Source: an uncultured Clostridia bacterium (GTDB taxonomy: Bacteria > Bacillota > Clostridia > Oscillospirales > Ruminococcaceae). Taken from it: a stretch of 64,000 bases of DNA. Below, piece after piece: positions 6,308-56,383 of this stretch. The position numbers were made by a program, and so were the translations under genes. The stretch covers positions 31,205 through 95,204 of the forward strand of contig CANQPX010000004.1 in the NCBI GenBank assembly GCA_947625915.1. The letters are read 5' to 3'. The notes beneath the pieces were generated by a model. It saw nothing but the letters and a program-made list of their open reading frames with translations. It was not told the origin of the DNA and searched no databases. The number at the start of each line of letters is the position of its first letter. The first letter of the stretch is position 1.

Positions 6308-6889
6308 ATGTCTGATAAAAAAACCGCAAAAAAACAGGGACGCGGCATCAAGGAGTTTTTCCGTAAATCTATGGTGTCTCTGAAACGCTCACCGCAGAAT
6401 ATACCGCTTCTGGCTCTGGTACTGGCGTTCCTTATATACTCGCTGAACCTTTCGTCTATAGCAAATACTACGGCAAGGATCAACGGCGCAAATATGGGTC
6501 AGTGTGAGTTCGTGGCAATGCTGTTCTCGATACTGGCATTCGTGGTGTTCCTGAGAACTTTTCCGCGGCGACAGCCTGTGAATAAGATAATGCTGGGATT
6601 GCTGTTCGCAATGCTCATACTCCTCGGCGTGGTGGATACAGTGTATATTTCACGCATTATCGACGCTACTACACGAAGCGAAAATCAGATCGTGATAGAC
6701 GCGTCTTCAGCTTACATAACGACAGCACAGACTTCCGTTACGCTGCACGTTGTATTTATCGCGGCAACGGCTGTTCTGCTGATACTTTTGCCGCTGTATT
6801 CAAAGGCAATAAGAAAGATAAAAACTTCTATCGAAGTCGAAGGCAACGAAAATATGGAGGCTATAGATATTGCAGGTGAAGATCAGTGA
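6308..6889 (+). CDS. Small polytopic membrane protein, unknown function
   Basis: 193 aa with about 4 hydrophobic segments, RBS agggagg. Confidence 0.75.
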   Translation: MSDKKTAKKQGRGIKEFFRKSMVSLKRSPQNIPLLALVLAFLIYSLNLSSIANTTARINGANMGQCEFVAMLFSILAFVVFLRTFPRRQPVNKIMLGLLFAMLILLGVVDTVYISRIIDATTRSENQIVIDASSAYITTAQTSVTLHVVFIAATAVLLILLPLYSKAIRKIKTSIEVEGNENMEAIDIAGEDQ

Positions 6890-6956
6890 CCGCTGCAAAT
6901 GACTGTATCTGATCTTACGGCTGTATCGGCTCCGTTAAAAAGGATAAAGTTTTTTT

Positions 6957-7604
6957 ATGGCTAAAAATAATGACCGTCGGCAGGAAGAAGAAAGATCCGC
7001 CGCAAGCTATTACAAGCTCAATACGGACGCGGTGGAACGCCTGACGGACACAAAAAACGCTCCGAAAGTCTCAGATGCGGAAATAAAAAAATATACTTCA
7101 AAGGGAAAGGGAAAATTCCATATCCCCGAATGGCTGAAAATAGTATTCATAAAATTCTGGTTCTCGGGAGCGATATGTTATTACTTCCTTTGGGGACTGG
7201 GACTTTATCTGCATGGTCTTGATCTGATGTTTTCTCTGGCAGTTGGTCTCGGCATCGCGAACGATCTGCTTGTAAACAAGCTGCTGCGGTCATTTGAACC
7301 CGAACAGGGTGCTTATGATAAGTGGATGATGATAACGGCAAGAAAATTCTGGTCGATATTTCTGAATGTTATATATTCGGGAGTTGTGCTGTACTGCGTT
7401 TTTCAGTCATATTATGTCATAAACATCATGCTCGGAGTGGACGCAAACGCCGATAACTCGGAGGCAGTGGCAATGGTGGGAGTTGAACCTTTGCTGTTCG
7501 GCTTGCTGTATATGGGATTTGATATGCTTCTTATTGCAATAAAAAATACCTTTATAAAGATATTCCGTGACGCCGGTGCAAATATCCCGGGCGGAAGGAA
7601 ATGA
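6957..7604 (+). CDS. Small polytopic membrane protein, unknown function
   Basis: 215 aa, hydrophilic N-terminus then several TM segments; overlaps the GH28 start. Confidence 0.75.
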   Translation: MAKNNDRRQEEERSAASYYKLNTDAVERLTDTKNAPKVSDAEIKKYTSKGKGKFHIPEWLKIVFIKFWFSGAICYYFLWGLGLYLHGLDLMFSLAVGLGIANDLLVNKLLRSFEPEQGAYDKWMMITARKFWSIFLNVIYSGVVLYCVFQSYYVINIMLGVDANADNSEAVAMVGVEPLLFGLLYMGFDMLLIAIKNTFIKIFRDAGANIPGGRK

Positions 7605-9160
7605 GATCAGGTGTGAAAATGATAAACACTTTATTTATCGGTTCGGTAAGCGCCTGCTTTGAACTGGAAAATTCCTGCGCTTACTTCAATGATAACGAAT
7701 ATTCGGTAAAGCTTGACGGGGAAACTTTGTTTTCAGCGAAAACCAACGTTTTCTCATTGTTTGACCTGCGCCCCGACCGAGAATACGTTCTTGAAGTCAC
7801 GGGACAGGAAACACTGAGATTTAAGACCGCTAAGGAGACTTGCGCTGTAAATGTAAAGGATTTCGGCGCTGTGGGAGACGGCATTTCCGATGATACGCTC
7901 AGCGTACAGACTGCGGTGAATTGTCTGCCCGAAGGAGGACGCCTGCTGTTCCCGGAAGGCGTTTACAGCGTTGCGCCGATCAACCTTAAAAGCCATATTA
8001 CCATAGAGCTTTCAGAAAATGCCGTTCTGCTCGGAAATACCGATACTTCACGCTATCCGATAATTCCCGGAGAACTTTCGGATATCGTTAACGGAGAGTC
8101 CGTCCATTTCGGAACGTGGGAAGGCAACGCGGCTCCTATGCACCAGTCTTTGCTGTCGGCAGAGTATGCGGAGGATATAAAAATAGTCGGAAAAGGCACT
8201 GTTGACGGTAATGCTCAGAACAGCAGCTGGTGGATAAATGTCAAAGAACAGAAAATGGCACGCCCGAGACTTATCTTCTTCAACCGCTGCAGGAACATCA
8301 CGATTCACGGCATTACGGCGCAGAATTCCGCATCATGGCAGCTGCACCCGTATTTTTCAAGGGAACTTGATTTCCTTGACCTTACCATAAACGCTCCAAA
8401 GGACAGCCCGAACACAGACGCCCTTGATCCCGAAGCTTGCGATAAGGTAAACATCATCGGCTGTAAATTCAGCGTCGGTGATGACTGCATTGCCATAAAA
8501 TCAGGCAAGATCGATATCGGAAAAAAATATAAGCAGCCTGCGATACGCCATACTATCAGGAACTGCATAATGCAGTTCGGACACGGCGCCATCACGCTGG
8601 GAAGCGAAATGGCAGGCGGCGTGAAAGAATTGACCGTTAACAGATGCATTTTCAGCCATACCGACAGAGGTCTGCGTATAAAAACAAGACGCGGAAGAGG
8701 CAAAGATGCGATAATTGACGGAGTTTTGTTTGAAAACATAAAAATGGACGGTGTGCTTACGCCGATAGTTATAAATATGTGGTATAATTGCTGCGATCCG
8801 GACAGATTTTCCGAGTACAATACGACTCGTGAGAAACTTCCGGTGGACGAACGTACGCCATATCTGGGAAAATTTACGTTCCGTGATATGGAGTGTACGA
8901 ATTGTCAGGTCGCGGCGTGTTACTGCGACGGTCTGCCGGAAATGCCGATAGACGATATCACTCTCGAAAATATTGATTTTACATACGATCCCGATGCAAA
9001 ACCCGGAGTTCCCGCAATGAGGAACAATGCCGAGAAAATGTGCAGGGCGGGTATGTATTTCGATAACGTAAATAAACTTACGGTGAAGAATGTCCGTGTG
9101 GAGGGCTGTAGCGGCGAAGAACTTCTTGCGCATAATGTTGCGGAACTCAGTAAGGAGTGA
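7601..9160 (+). CDS. Glycoside hydrolase family 28 (polygalacturonase-like)
   Basis: VKDFGAVGDGISDDT...; NTDALDPEACDKVNIIGCKFSVGDDCIAIKSGK; GHGAITLGSEMAGGV; characteristic GH28 motifs. Confidence 0.96.
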   Translation: MRSGVKMINTLFIGSVSACFELENSCAYFNDNEYSVKLDGETLFSAKTNVFSLFDLRPDREYVLEVTGQETLRFKTAKETCAVNVKDFGAVGDGISDDTLSVQTAVNCLPEGGRLLFPEGVYSVAPINLKSHITIELSENAVLLGNTDTSRYPIIPGELSDIVNGESVHFGTWEGNAAPMHQSLLSAEYAEDIKIVGKGTVDGNAQNSSWWINVKEQKMARPRLIFFNRCRNITIHGITAQNSASWQLHPYFSRELDFLDLTINAPKDSPNTDALDPEACDKVNIIGCKFSVGDDCIAIKSGKIDIGKKYKQPAIRHTIRNCIMQFGHGAITLGSEMAGGVKELTVNRCIFSHTDRGLRIKTRRGRGKDAIIDGVLFENIKMDGVLTPIVINMWYNCCDPDRFSEYNTTREKLPVDERTPYLGKFTFRDMECTNCQVAACYCDGLPEMPIDDITLENIDFTYDPDAKPGVPAMRNNAEKMCRAGMYFDNVNKLTVKNVRVEGCSGEELLAHNVAELSKE

Positions 9161-51874: not shown

Positions 51875-54241
51875 TTATTCAATATTTGCCGTATCGGACG
51901 CTTTGATCGTATTCATGTAAATTGCAGTCAGAAACGTACTGATAACGACTGTTGCAGTAATGATAAGCGGGTAAATTACAAACTGTTCAAGTACGTTAAA
52001 TTGATATTCGATACCTGCCGTTGCACCCATAGAAGAAAAAATCGGGTCAATGAGCAGCTTTAGCAGCGGCACACATGATACGGCAGCAATTATTTGCGCT
52101 AAAATTACCGAAATTAAAAATCTTCCCGTGTGCTGTGCCATAATTGCACCGCTTTTAAATCCAATAGCTTTCATTAGGGCAATCTCGGCTTTTTCTTTTG
52201 ATATAAACGAACGCTCCATTAAAACTGCGATCAAAATAATTACAATTAAAGAGATGGCAAGCACAAAATCCCTCACGCTTTTAATTGTGTCGGAAACGCC
52301 TGTTATAGCATTGATAAATCCGCGTGTATCGTGGATATTTTTGTTGTCAAAAATATCTTTTAATTTTTCTATACGTTCGGAAATTATCTTTTCATCAGGA
52401 TCGTCATCAAAGTTGATCTGATACCCGACAGCACCCGTCATCAATTCATTGGGAATTTCAAATTCCTCACAGAGTCTGCCCACATTTCCCGTCTGCATGA
52501 CACTTTGAAAAAGCGCTGTAACAATAAATTTTTTATCTTCTCCGTCAATATTTATTATCAATGTATCACCGATATTTACATTCATTTTTTCAGCCAGCAT
52601 TTCACTGAGTGCGATTTCGTTTTCATATTTCGGCGCAGCGCCTTTTGTGTATGTGTAATCCGTTGATCTGGTGTCTTTGCACCACACAAAATTCGTCTTG
52701 TATTTCACGTCGTTTGCCGTAACGGACAAGTTATAATATTCCTCGATGTAAACAGATGCGGGCATATTATTTTCTGCAAGAATATCGGAAATTTCTTGTT
52801 TTGTTTCATTAATATTTTTTGCACCCGATATAGCGTCTGTAATTCTTTTTGAATCTAAAAAATAAACATCGCTTTTTGTTACTCCAAGCAATTTCAGCAT
52901 TTTTTCACTTCTGAGCGTATTTGCTGTAACAGACAACACCATAACAAAAACCGTGCATATCGCAAAAATAAATGTTATAATACTAAATTGCTTCGGCTGA
53001 CTTATAACGTCGTTTAACGCAAGAAATGCGGTGCTTTTCAGTCTTGTTTTGCCAAGATGCAGAATACTTTTCTTGCGGAAACGTTCACCTGTCTGACCGC
53101 TGCGAACTGCATCGATCGGAGAAAGTTTTTTGATCTTCCCCGTACAATTCCAACTGAAAAACAGTATTATGACGACTACTGCTATACAACATAAAATGCC
53201 AATAACAGCGGTATTTTGATTTTCCAGAACCATATTTTCGCTGACGCTTTTTATCAGCATTTTTCCGAACGGAATGTTCAGAAAATAACCGATCACTGAA
53301 CCCGCAAGAGCGATAAAGAAATATTTTGCAAGATACAATATGCGTATAGAATTATTTTTCAGTCCAATTGCTTTCATTACACCTATTTCGCGAAATTCCT
53401 CCGCGATCGTAAAACCTATAGTGAAGCGAAGTACCGCAAATGACACGATAATAAGTCCGATACTTAAAATTAAAATGATCGTTGCAATGATCATATTCAT
53501 GAAATAAGTCAGCTTGACAGTATCGTTATCTATCATCAGATAAATATTTTCCGCATCGGAAATCTGAGATTGTAATGCGGATAAATTATCCGTTTCAATG
53601 TAGTAGACACTACCCGAAGTATACTGTTTTACTTGATCGTCATTTGCAATTTTTTTGTAGTCTTCCTCGCTGATAAGCATTCTCGGATTGCCCATCATTT
53701 CAGAACCAAACAGAGCGTCTTTCAGCGTACCGGCAAATTCAAATTCCATGTTGATCTCGCCGATCTTCAGCGTGAATTTATCACCGATCTGCAAATCAGA
53801 TCGTTTGGGGACTGCTCCCGTAATGTACATTTTTCCGGGTTCAACATTTTTGACGACATTATTATTCTCATCAAAAAAATTGAAATCCGAACCGCTTAGC
53901 GACTGCACCATTGAAATCTGCGAGTATTCCATGAGTTTTTTGCCGCCGCGTTTGAAATTCTCCTCTGATGTAAAAAATACATCATCTTTCCGGTATGACT
54001 TCGCATTTTCGCTGTTTTTGAGCAGATCTTCAACAGTGTCCTCGCCATTGATTTTGTGCGACAAAATGTAGTAATCCGCCATTCCTGCCTCTTCAAAGTA
54101 ATGGTCAAGTCCTTTCTCCACAACCATGATATTGTTCACGCCGCTTGCCGTAAACATTGCCGACAGTATCACAAACAACAGCAGAATTATGTTCATGGTC
54201 TTTTTGCGTTTCAGATCTTTTCCGATAATTCTCAGGTACAT
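51875..54241 (-). CDS. FtsX-like ABC transporter permease
   Basis: 788 aa, EEFREIGVMKAIGLKNNSIRILYLAKY and EKAEIALMKAIGFKSGAIMAQHTGRF FtsX repeats. Confidence 0.93.
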   Translation of the reverse strand: MYLRIIGKDLKRKKTMNIILLLFVILSAMFTASGVNNIMVVEKGLDHYFEEAGMADYYILSHKINGEDTVEDLLKNSENAKSYRKDDVFFTSEENFKRGGKKLMEYSQISMVQSLSGSDFNFFDENNNVVKNVEPGKMYITGAVPKRSDLQIGDKFTLKIGEINMEFEFAGTLKDALFGSEMMGNPRMLISEEDYKKIANDDQVKQYTSGSVYYIETDNLSALQSQISDAENIYLMIDNDTVKLTYFMNMIIATIILILSIGLIIVSFAVLRFTIGFTIAEEFREIGVMKAIGLKNNSIRILYLAKYFFIALAGSVIGYFLNIPFGKMLIKSVSENMVLENQNTAVIGILCCIAVVVIILFFSWNCTGKIKKLSPIDAVRSGQTGERFRKKSILHLGKTRLKSTAFLALNDVISQPKQFSIITFIFAICTVFVMVLSVTANTLRSEKMLKLLGVTKSDVYFLDSKRITDAISGAKNINETKQEISDILAENNMPASVYIEEYYNLSVTANDVKYKTNFVWCKDTRSTDYTYTKGAAPKYENEIALSEMLAEKMNVNIGDTLIINIDGEDKKFIVTALFQSVMQTGNVGRLCEEFEIPNELMTGAVGYQINFDDDPDEKIISERIEKLKDIFDNKNIHDTRGFINAITGVSDTIKSVRDFVLAISLIVIILIAVLMERSFISKEKAEIALMKAIGFKSGAIMAQHTGRFLISVILAQIIAAVSCVPLLKLLIDPIFSSMGATAGIEYQFNVLEQFVIYPLIITATVVISTFLTAIYMNTIKASDTANIE

Positions 54242-54479
54242 TTTCTTACGCTCCTTTCAATAAATTTATTGTACCATGAAAATTATTAAGAAATCCTTAA
54301 ATTTGAAATTGAATTATCAGAAGTACATTTTTATTGATTTGTTTTAAATATGCCGCCTCAAGGGGGAAATATTCCGATTTATCTGGCAACACCCGACAAT
54401 ACGATCATATCATAAAAATGTTGATTTGTCAAATTAATTTTTTCAATGATGATCCCACAAAATCAGTCATTAACAAAAC

Positions 54480-54508
54480 TTGACAAGTCGGTGTTTTTAT
54501 GATATAAT
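54480..54508 (+). promoter_or_regulatory. Sigma70-type promoter upstream of NUDIX gene
   Basis: TTGACA-17-TATAAT. Confidence 0.8.
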
Positions 54509-54555
54509 CATACCATTGAGTTATTACTCGACAAATCAAAATTCGGAGGTTTTTT

Positions 54556-55029
54556 ATGAATAAAGATTGGATATTTACTGATGATAAATATACTTGTGAA
54601 CTTAGAACAGCCGGCGTTTTGATCAAAGATAATATGATCTTAGTGCAAAGAGATAAAGACGGAAATGAATATGCTTTGCCGGGCGGTCATATAAAAATAG
54701 GAGAAACATTGGAAGATGGTTTGGTTCGTGAAATGAGGGAAGAAATGGGAGTCGGAATACGATGCGATCGTCTGTTGTGGAGCGAAGAATGTTTTTGGGA
54801 ATGGGACGGCAAGCAAGTGCATACTATCGCTTTTTATTATCGGATCGAGCTTTGCGATGAATTTGATATTCCTGAAAACGGCGGGTTTGTTTCACAGAAA
54901 GATAATTGCAATGTAGTTCTCGGTTGGCTGCATATCGACGAACTGCAAAAGATAACCATATATCCTGCATTTTTGAAAGAAGAAATATATCATCTGAATG
55001 ATCCCATAAAGCATTTTATTTCAAAATGA
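54556..55029 (+). CDS. NUDIX hydrolase
   Basis: GGHIKIGETLEDGLVREMREEMG matches NUDIX box Gx5Ex7REUXEEXGU. Confidence 0.94.
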   Translation: MNKDWIFTDDKYTCELRTAGVLIKDNMILVQRDKDGNEYALPGGHIKIGETLEDGLVREMREEMGVGIRCDRLLWSEECFWEWDGKQVHTIAFYYRIELCDEFDIPENGGFVSQKDNCNVVLGWLHIDELQKITIYPAFLKEEIYHLNDPIKHFISK

Positions 55030-55054
55030 TAATAAAATTGGAGTGGTGGATTTT

Positions 55055-56035
55055 ATGGTCAAAAAAAGATTGACAAGAGATTTATGGGGATTTCAATATT
55101 TTCCTTATTATCAAATGCGTATTGACCGCGATAAATTTCATGGTTGGGCAGCTTTGAACGAATTAACAGACGGAGATCATCAGTATTGGGATTTTAAAAA
55201 GGCAGGAAAGACTCCGGTTGCGGGAAAAGGAATGTGTTGGCTCACCTTGATCCCCGACGGGAAAAAACATTCTGTTACTGCAATGTTTACGGAAAACGGA
55301 GAAATATCCGCATGGTATATTGATGTGATCTATTCATTATTGACAGATGAGGACGGAGTTCTGGCTTTTATGGATCAATACCTTGATGTTCTCCTTACAA
55401 CAAAAGGCGATGTATTGATAGATGACAGGGAAGAATTAGACGAAGCATACCGTTCCGGAGAATTTACTGAAGATGAATATAAAGCCGCGCTTAAAGAAGG
55501 AGATTTGATAATTGACGAATGGGGTAAAGATATTCATAAGTCCGAACTGATATGCAAAGAGATATTAAAATATGCAAGAGAGCAGGCACACGCTCACCCG
55601 CTGACTGTATTTCTTGATATTGACGGCGTATTGAATGTTTTTCAGCCCGATAATGAAGTGCAAACTTTACTGCCATCAGCAGGAAATAATATTTGTGATC
55701 TGATATATAGAATGAAAGCAAATTTAGTAATTATATCCGATCATCGGTCAGGCGGAGCAACTTATGATATGGTATCGGATTTTTTCAAGCAAAACCGGAT
55801 AGATTTTGACATCACTCCATGTGGAGATGAATATCAAAGCAGAACAGAAGAAATAAACGCTTATTTGCATATGCACCCGAATATTGAAAGATATGTTATT
55901 TTGGACGATTGTTTTCAGGATAACTATAATGGCGATAAAAAATTGCAGGAACATCTTGTATTTGTTGATGCTTTAAAAGGTTTACAAAAACAAGATATTA
56001 TAAAAGCCTGTGATATCCTGAACCGTCAAATTTAA
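55055..56035 (+). CDS. DUF402 (nucleoside di/triphosphatase-like) N-terminus fused to HAD-type C-terminal domain
   Basis: N-term SVTAMFTENGEISAWYIDVIYS...YLDVLLTTKGDVLIDDREELDEAYRSGEFTEDEYKAAL; C-term VFLDIDGVLNVF, VIISDHRSGG, RYVILDD. Confidence 0.8.
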   Translation: MVKKRLTRDLWGFQYFPYYQMRIDRDKFHGWAALNELTDGDHQYWDFKKAGKTPVAGKGMCWLTLIPDGKKHSVTAMFTENGEISAWYIDVIYSLLTDEDGVLAFMDQYLDVLLTTKGDVLIDDREELDEAYRSGEFTEDEYKAALKEGDLIIDEWGKDIHKSELICKEILKYAREQAHAHPLTVFLDIDGVLNVFQPDNEVQTLLPSAGNNICDLIYRMKANLVIISDHRSGGATYDMVSDFFKQNRIDFDITPCGDEYQSRTEEINAYLHMHPNIERYVILDDCFQDNYNGDKKLQEHLVFVDALKGLQKQDIIKACDILNRQI

Positions 56036-56060
56036 TATTGCAAATTATTTTTTAATGTAA

Positions 56061-56094
56061 AGCCGTCACATCTAAAATACAAGGTGTGACGGTT
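56061..56094 (+). terminator. Terminator downstream of DUF402-HAD gene
   Basis: AGCCGTCACAtctaaaatacaaggTGTGACGGTT followed by AGTATTTT. Confidence 0.7.
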
Positions 56095-56383
56095 TAGTAT
56101 TTTGCCGGGTTTTCTTATGGCAAAGGGAAATAAGTTACGATATTTAGTCGAATGATCAGTATGATCGGTACGCATTTTGCGTAAACAGATCAGGCAGAAA
56201 AACAATTGCAGTATGATATAATTAAAACATACAAAAAACTTATAAAAAACACATAAAAAACATATGCATATGATATTATCAATATAGAAAAAGAGAGAAA
56301 TAAAAAATTCTTGTTGAATAGCTTTTTTTATTTTCTTTTAAATGTGAGCATTATACGATATAGAAATAAGGAGATGTGTTGAT

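Follow-up and report, generated by a model that had tools for sequence, protein, structure and literature searches.

A 64,000-nucleotide stretch of DNA from an uncultured Clostridia bacterium (hereafter the window, whose numbering is used throughout) carries a NUDIX hydrolase gene followed closely by a gene that joins a DUF402 domain to a HAD-like phosphatase domain. An earlier note on this DNA saw here three phosphohydrolase activities in one transcript, and proposed a nucleotide- or RNA-end-processing module with a possible part in damage repair or defence. The locus raises the question of what an enzyme would do that unites two phosphohydrolase folds that elsewhere, within the scope of the searches made here, occur separately, and whether the NUDIX protein belongs to its function.

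The two-gene unit of the window

The features of the locus are collected in Table 1. The fusion was listed as an open reading frame of 330 aa from GTG 55043, which is an over-extension, as translation of its relatives begins at the codon that corresponds to ATG 55055; this ATG is preceded by a ribosome-binding site and gives the N-terminus MVKKRLTRD. Because the real start, judged from the relatives, is this ATG, the gap separating the fusion from the NUDIX stop codon is 25 nt, in line with the spacing of about 30 nt originally noticed. The NUDIX translation shows the complete Nudix box GX5EX7REUXEEXGU (GHIKIGETLEDGLVREMREEMGV).

Between the promoter in front of the NUDIX gene and the hairpin behind the fusion no further terminator was called in the region scanned, and a shared transcript is therefore likely. 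Co-transcription of the two genes in the window genome is thus supported, though not proven, by these predicted signals. To this extent the notion of three activities in one transcript holds for the window genome; it does not extend to the relatives, in which the adjacent NUDIX gene is missing. Further copies of the terminator hairpin, 87-89% identical, lie within the genus at G980:C38 and G983:C77. Neither Rfam nor tRNA scanning gave a match in the window.

Table 1. Predicted features of the NUDIX and DUF402-HAD locus, in window coordinates.
Feature	Position	Strand	Remarks
Inverted related repeat copy	54367..54436	-	Divergent promoter TTGACA-17-TATGAT, 54432 to 54404
Dispersed repeat of ~85 bp, promoter-bearing	54457..54543	+	Heads the NUDIX-fusion unit; TTGACA at 54480, TATAAT ends at 54508
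Promoter TTGACA-17-TATAAT, sigma-70	54480-54508	+	12/12 match; upstream of NUDIX
NUDIX hydrolase, 157 aa	54556..55029	+	PF00293 E=1.5e-12; intact Nudix box; facultative partner
DUF402-HAD fusion, 326 aa	55055..56035	+	Conserved ATG start
DUF402 domain, residues 1-180 (326-aa numbering)	55055..55594	+	Y88, D90, D107, D111, D124, E127 invariant
HAD_SAK_2 phosphatase domain, residues 183-323	55601..56023	+	Without large cap insertion
Intrinsic terminator hairpin, 14 pairs	56060..56095	+	Downstream of the fusion; closes the unit

Domains, active-site residues and predicted fold

The identities first given to the NUDIX, DUF402 and HAD parts were upheld by Pfam matches far above the curated cut-offs. 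In the fusion, PF04167 (DUF402) matches residues 66-132 (E=3.2e-12; 46.9 bits against a cut-off of 23.9) and PF18143 (HAD_SAK_2) matches residues 188-318 (E=1.4e-18; 68 bits against 27.5). HAD_SAK_2 is the type of HAD domain present in Swiss-Army-Knife RNA repair proteins as well as in numerous phage proteins. The AlphaFold model of the whole fusion is confident (pLDDT 89.1, pTM 0.87), as is that of the HAD alone (pLDDT 91.4, pTM 0.89), the secondary structure of which is without a large cap insertion. A long helix (160-180) closes the DUF402 domain and leads into the HAD.

In Foldseek searches the best matches of the fusion were RNase W (8rza, 8wo8, 8rzf), FomD with and without CDP, Sa1684, 2p12 and SC4828, with E<=3e-4 for RNase W, CDP-bound FomD, Sa1684 and SC4828; RNase W (E=6e-7 to 1.7e-6) ranked slightly above FomD. 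The HAD alone matched MDP-1, GmhB, T4 Pnkp and Pnkp1 of the Pnkp1/Rnl/Hen1 complex, the T4 Pnkp and Pnkp1 matches having E-values of 2.7e-4 to 4.5e-4 at a sequence identity of 15-17%. A profile search of PDB sequences with this domain matched no HAD. The resemblance to HAD domains of nucleic-acid repair proteins that had been suspected is borne out, both by the HAD_SAK_2 family and by these two Foldseek matches (E<=5e-4).

The HAD and DUF402 rows were aligned as two separate models. Across 12 fusions the HAD residues D188xD190, S228-x-H230-R231, R263 and D285 are invariant, while D284 is replaced by Gly in one copy; the motif I Asp pair, the motif II Ser and Arg and the motif IV Asp pair are also invariant across 14 HADs that include stand-alone relatives. 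A catalytically dead HAD, one of the refuting conditions of the earlier note, is rejected on the invariance of these Asp, Ser and Arg residues. The usual HAD_SAK_2 motif II, SxWR, reads SxHR in the fusion, with His in place of Trp. In the DUF402 half, the six residues given in Table 1 are invariant in 45 subfamily rows, and in 23 divergent rows the same holds for all of them except E127, which is nearly so. In profile alignments with solved structures, D107, D111 and D124 fall on the corresponding acidic residues of SC4828, SA1684 and RNase W. The E127 position, three residues after D124, is Glu in SC4828, Sa1684 and 2p12 and Lys in RNase W. The D90 position holds Asp in 2p12 as well, but Asn in RNase W, SC4828 and SA1684. 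From the RNase W paper and the reading of these alignments, the conserved acidic residues of the DUF402 domain are putative metal ligands, and the Glu at E127, as opposed to the Lys of RNase W, favours the phosphatase type for this half. Values of dN/dS are low in both domains (0.07-0.16 for DUF402, 0.09-0.28 for HAD), which indicates purifying selection and hence that both halves are maintained.

Distribution and descent of the fusion

Samples of 199 family, 391 class and 399 phylum genomes were searched, the first two with the protein itself and all three with PF18143. No DUF402-HAD fusion other than that of the window was seen in these samples. The close DUF402 relatives in the sampled genomes stand alone, and the HAD_SAK_2 matches lie in open reading frames no longer than about 207 aa, with the exception of L054 (402 aa), the remainder of which does not look like DUF402 by eye. 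When the DUF402 subfamily was used to scan 84,980 species genomes (with tblastn E-values that refer to the candidate stretches only), 10 further full-length fusions were obtained, with a best-segment identity of 70-92%. Three more are cut by contig ends: L066 at residue 307, and L105 and L106 as short fragments. The carriers are metagenome-assembled genomes labelled Lachnospiraceae, Butyrivibrio, Acetatifactor, Ruminococcus and Clostridia, nearly all compared sequences being metagenome-assembled; one of the loci, L059, and G981:C29 apparently represent a single contig, as they agree in length and in gene content.

In a tree of 45 DUF402 proteins, the 11 fusions included are set apart from the rest by a branch supported at 100/100. 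A chance read-through in one assembly is ruled out by the 10 other full-length copies, which lie on separate contigs and form one clade. The occurrence of close copies in differing surroundings across many related gut bacteria argues therefore for a real, conserved enzyme. No fusion was found in the viral contigs, phages or plasmids searched, and the phage HAD_SAK_2 matches are 24-40% identical and cover the HAD part only; a phage origin was thus rejected. In the open-licence full-text literature of one library, no description of DUF402 and HAD domains together was found. Our impression is that this is a new fusion of known domains, giving a predicted enzyme.

Gene-bounded spread and surroundings

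The neighbours of independent fusion copies (called by a simple ORF rule and named partly by eye, partly by Pfam) differ from locus to locus, and include DUF1963, HxlR, GNAT and AraC proteins, a nucleotidyltransferase-like protein and a sugar transferase. Among fusion copies that are 87-94% identical, the similar stretch of DNA reaches from about 0-20 bases upstream of the start codon to the vicinity of the stop codon, with several C-terminal tails passing into unrelated sequence, and common flanks occur only in near-identical arrays (L065/L067 and L068/L106). Since the copies have almost nothing in common outside the gene, the fusion spreads as a single-gene unit. Neither 12-mer comparison nor a repeat search found a recombination site common to the flanks. 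The only 12-mer sharing past the coding end concerns one downstream gene in L061 and L104, two otherwise unrelated loci that have in common a 65-bp stretch (91%) at differing distances from the fusion (L061 6030-6094, L104 6187-6251). In L061 this stretch starts an open reading frame, MKNLIIPPKLNEGDTVA, which by eye resembles the start of an S66 LD-carboxypeptidase/MccF protein.

The NUDIX gene behaves similarly. Its close homologues elsewhere (65-76% identity) lie next to polA and GNAT or RidA and CAAX protease genes: the homologue in G149 (76%), beside polA and GNAT, matches at the DNA level only from ribosome-binding site to stop, and that in G180 precedes the RidA and CAAX protease genes. 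Other accessory genes recur as well: in another array of the window genome, on contig C23, a GNAT gene has 92% DNA identity with the GNAT gene that follows the fusion in L059, and a DinB-like gene matches (77%) its counterpart following the fusion in L060. Homology among copies of these genes, too, stops near ribosome-binding site and stop codon, and their flanks are unrelated. By a rough test, GNAT and NUDIX genes are over-represented near fusions (5/63 and 2/63, against about 0.6 and 0.2 expected) and near stand-alone DUF402 relatives (14/95 and 4/95, against about 0.95 and 0.3), the expectations resting on the gene counts of the window genome as sole background and the observed counts on pooled related loci. 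Such surroundings show a guild, not a common pathway. With its differing neighbours and gene-bounded homology, the NUDIX-fusion pair therefore looks like one combination drawn from an accessory gene pool.

Congeners that lack the pair keep the flanking gene blocks, on the left up to 54331 (G984) or 54464 (G980) and on the right from 56197 (G982) or 56325 (G980), so that the pair occupies a variable junction, at which the congener contigs break. Several Clostridia carry a stand-alone DUF402 gene in the order tsaE-tsaB-DUF402(-rpiB) (L095, L101 and L107, also L003 and L004), where its start overlaps the last few bases of tsaB; this order hints at a possible ancestral context.

A dispersed promoter repeat

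The promoter of the unit is part of the ~85-bp repeat, in which a palindrome, TATGAT-ATA-ATCATA, spans the -10 element. The divergent promoter of the inverted related copy faces an ABC-permease gene (51875-54241). Elsewhere, one copy precedes a GNAT gene in contig C23 of the window genome, about 10 are found in the congener G980 and several in G984 and G981; the repeat is recorded at L206 2786-2872 and in L228-L244. In 13 aligned copies, TTGACA is followed by a conserved spacer and TATGATATAATCATA, with GACAAATC downstream. Most aligned copies sit close to the 5' side of a co-oriented gene, and the genes behind them, named by eye, encode GNAT, NUDIX, SocA-like, isochorismatase, GATase, TfoX-like and ABC permease proteins. 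The repeat may be either a mobile promoter or the signature of a regulon. Together with the gene-bounded mobility, this repeated element points to an accessory gene pool of gut Clostridia. A more specific picture, here considered quite unlikely, is a cassette-like traffic of single accessory genes (the fusion, NUDIX, GNATs, DinB-like), bounded near ribosome-binding site and stop and, in the genus of the window, often placed behind the ~85-bp repeats, with the fusion as cargo providing a two-step nucleotide-stripping enzyme for resistance or detoxification.

Proposed function and alternatives

It is tentatively proposed that 55055-56035 encodes a bifunctional, metal-dependent nucleotide phosphohydrolase of the accessory or detoxification kind. 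None of the close relatives of the fusion has a known activity, and substrate, step order and physiological role of the fusion are inferred. The DUF402 barrel, with acidic ligands like those of Ntdp/SC4828-type phosphatases, would cleave a nucleoside triphosphate or diphosphate (or a conjugate of a nucleotide) down to the monophosphate, and the HAD would then strip the remaining phosphate by way of an aspartyl-phosphate on D188, with D190 as acid/base. The characterised DUF402 enzyme Bph hydrolyses NTPs, NDPs, dNTPs and ppGpp with Mn, and not AMP (PMC6753144), and the fusion would for this reason couple two steps, the HAD monoesterase finishing the phosphate removal that a DUF402 di/triphosphatase leaves undone. 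FomD hydrolyses a cytidylyl phosphonate, and the authors of the Bph study proposed that DUF402 beside other domains marks dual-function proteins (PMC6753144). The single-gene accessory behaviour of the fusion, near GNAT, NUDIX and similar small-molecule-modifying genes, makes a dispensable role, namely nucleotide house-cleaning or the detoxification of a nucleotide-like compound, likelier than a core one.

Capless HADs are able to reach macromolecular ends. In a second and rather unlikely reading, the DUF402 domain would be an RNase W-like nuclease or RNA-end hydrolase that leaves or exposes a phosphate, and the HAD would remove the 3'-phosphate in the manner of T4 Pnkp or bacterial Pnkp1, either alone or in the repair of ribotoxin-cut RNA. 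The phosphatase domain of Pnkp1 does take 3'-phosphates off cut RNA (PMC4411300), and the DUF402 domain is an RNase in RNase W, whose authors left RNA action of bacterial DUF402 open (PMC11602121); as RNase W also ranks slightly above FomD among the structural matches, a nucleic-acid substrate retains some probability. Against it stand two positions that differ from RNase W, E127 (Lys there) and D90 (Asn there), and the SxHR form of motif II. Moreover, no RNA ligase, kinase, Hen1 or RNA-binding domain was found in or beside the fusion, and the HAD_SAK_2 genes of the sampled genomes almost all stand alone. The nucleotide phosphohydrolase reading is preferred; the rest of the probability falls to defence, a conserved three-part pathway and other options, such as a non-nucleotide substrate.

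A role in anti-phage defence, in which infection would trigger the stripping of (d)NTPs to nucleosides and so deplete nucleotides, is very unlikely. The predicted chemistry and the patchy, horizontally moving distribution would fit, and one fusion copy (L062) has a C5 cytosine methylase and an Eco47II-type restriction endonuclease downstream (6792-8692). However, this restriction-modification neighbour is found at 1 of 10 fusion loci only, the other neighbours being metabolic or resistance-like rather than defence genes; the fusion is without a sensor domain, absent from the viral collection searched and without any PADLOC match (0), and the PDC-S07 match of the NUDIX protein, over 80 residues, is non-specific. 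The suggestion of defence in the earlier note thus finds no backing, nor does that of NUDIX, DUF402 and HAD acting as one unit, because the NUDIX gene adjoins the fusion only in the window.

A conserved three-part pathway is highly improbable: the tight spacing and common promoter and terminator of the window, and the presence of a NUDIX gene two genes upstream of the fusion, before GNAT, in L061, L068 and L106, are outweighed by the facts that L068 and L106 are nearly identical arrays, that the L068 NUDIX is just 26% identical to that of the window and the L061 one undetected with it (phmmer and blastp, at the thresholds used), that close NUDIX homologues have no fusion nearby, and that L063 and L104 show promoter-like sequences directly 5' of the fusion and no NUDIX. 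The NUDIX protein as an obligate partner was likewise ruled out, given the fusion loci without an adjacent NUDIX gene and the other contexts of its close homologues.

Comparison with known systems

Like integron gene cassettes, the fusion is a single gene with its ribosome-binding site and unrelated flanks, often in the company of small accessory genes on the same strand (GNAT, NUDIX, aminoglycoside-modifying). On the other side, 12-mer comparison found no conserved site common to the flanks of different copies, several copies lie in ordinary chromosomal contexts, and no integrase was seen among the first 25 families listed for the flanking neighbours.

With other HAD_SAK_2 members the HAD domain shares DxDG, the motif II Ser and Arg and the DD motif, at about 24-36% identity to bacterial and phage members, but the other sampled members almost all stand alone, whereas this one is joined to DUF402. 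These two domains were the only ones found in the fusion, and the neighbour families listed include no RNA-repair genes, so that the composition differs from that of a Swiss-Army-Knife RNA repair system. The 3'-phosphatase domains of T4 Pnkp and Pnkp1 have the same HAD fold without a large cap; sequence identity to them is low, and the fusion is without their kinase or RNA ligase partner.

The top structural match of the DUF402 half is to RNase W/FAU-1, an archaeal G/E-like-DUF402 hybrid, with the equivalents of D107, D111 and D124 conserved. The fusion is by contrast bacterial, joined to a HAD and without the 5'-sensor/S1 or central domain, and a domain search found no G/E-like domain in it. 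It shares PF04167 with Ntdp/SA1684, Bph, SC4828 and FomD, its barrel matching FomD, Sa1684 and SC4828 by Foldseek, and it has in common with the DUF402 nucleotide phosphatases the ligand pattern D..LD plus DxxEL; position 90 is Asp in the fusion and Asn in SC4828 and SA1684, and the score against the FomD NCBIfam equivalog (21 bits) does not reach the cut-off of 320 bits. Bph and SA1684 are single-domain proteins in which DUF402 makes up more than 90% of the length (PMC6753144), whereas the fusion carries a C-terminal HAD phosphatase. It thereby bears on the question, left by the RNase W authors, of whether bacterial DUF402 proteins act on nucleotides or on RNA (PMC11602121), and may serve as a natural "Rosetta" protein for the poorly understood DUF402 and HAD_SAK_2 families, since its HAD probably uses the product of its DUF402 domain.
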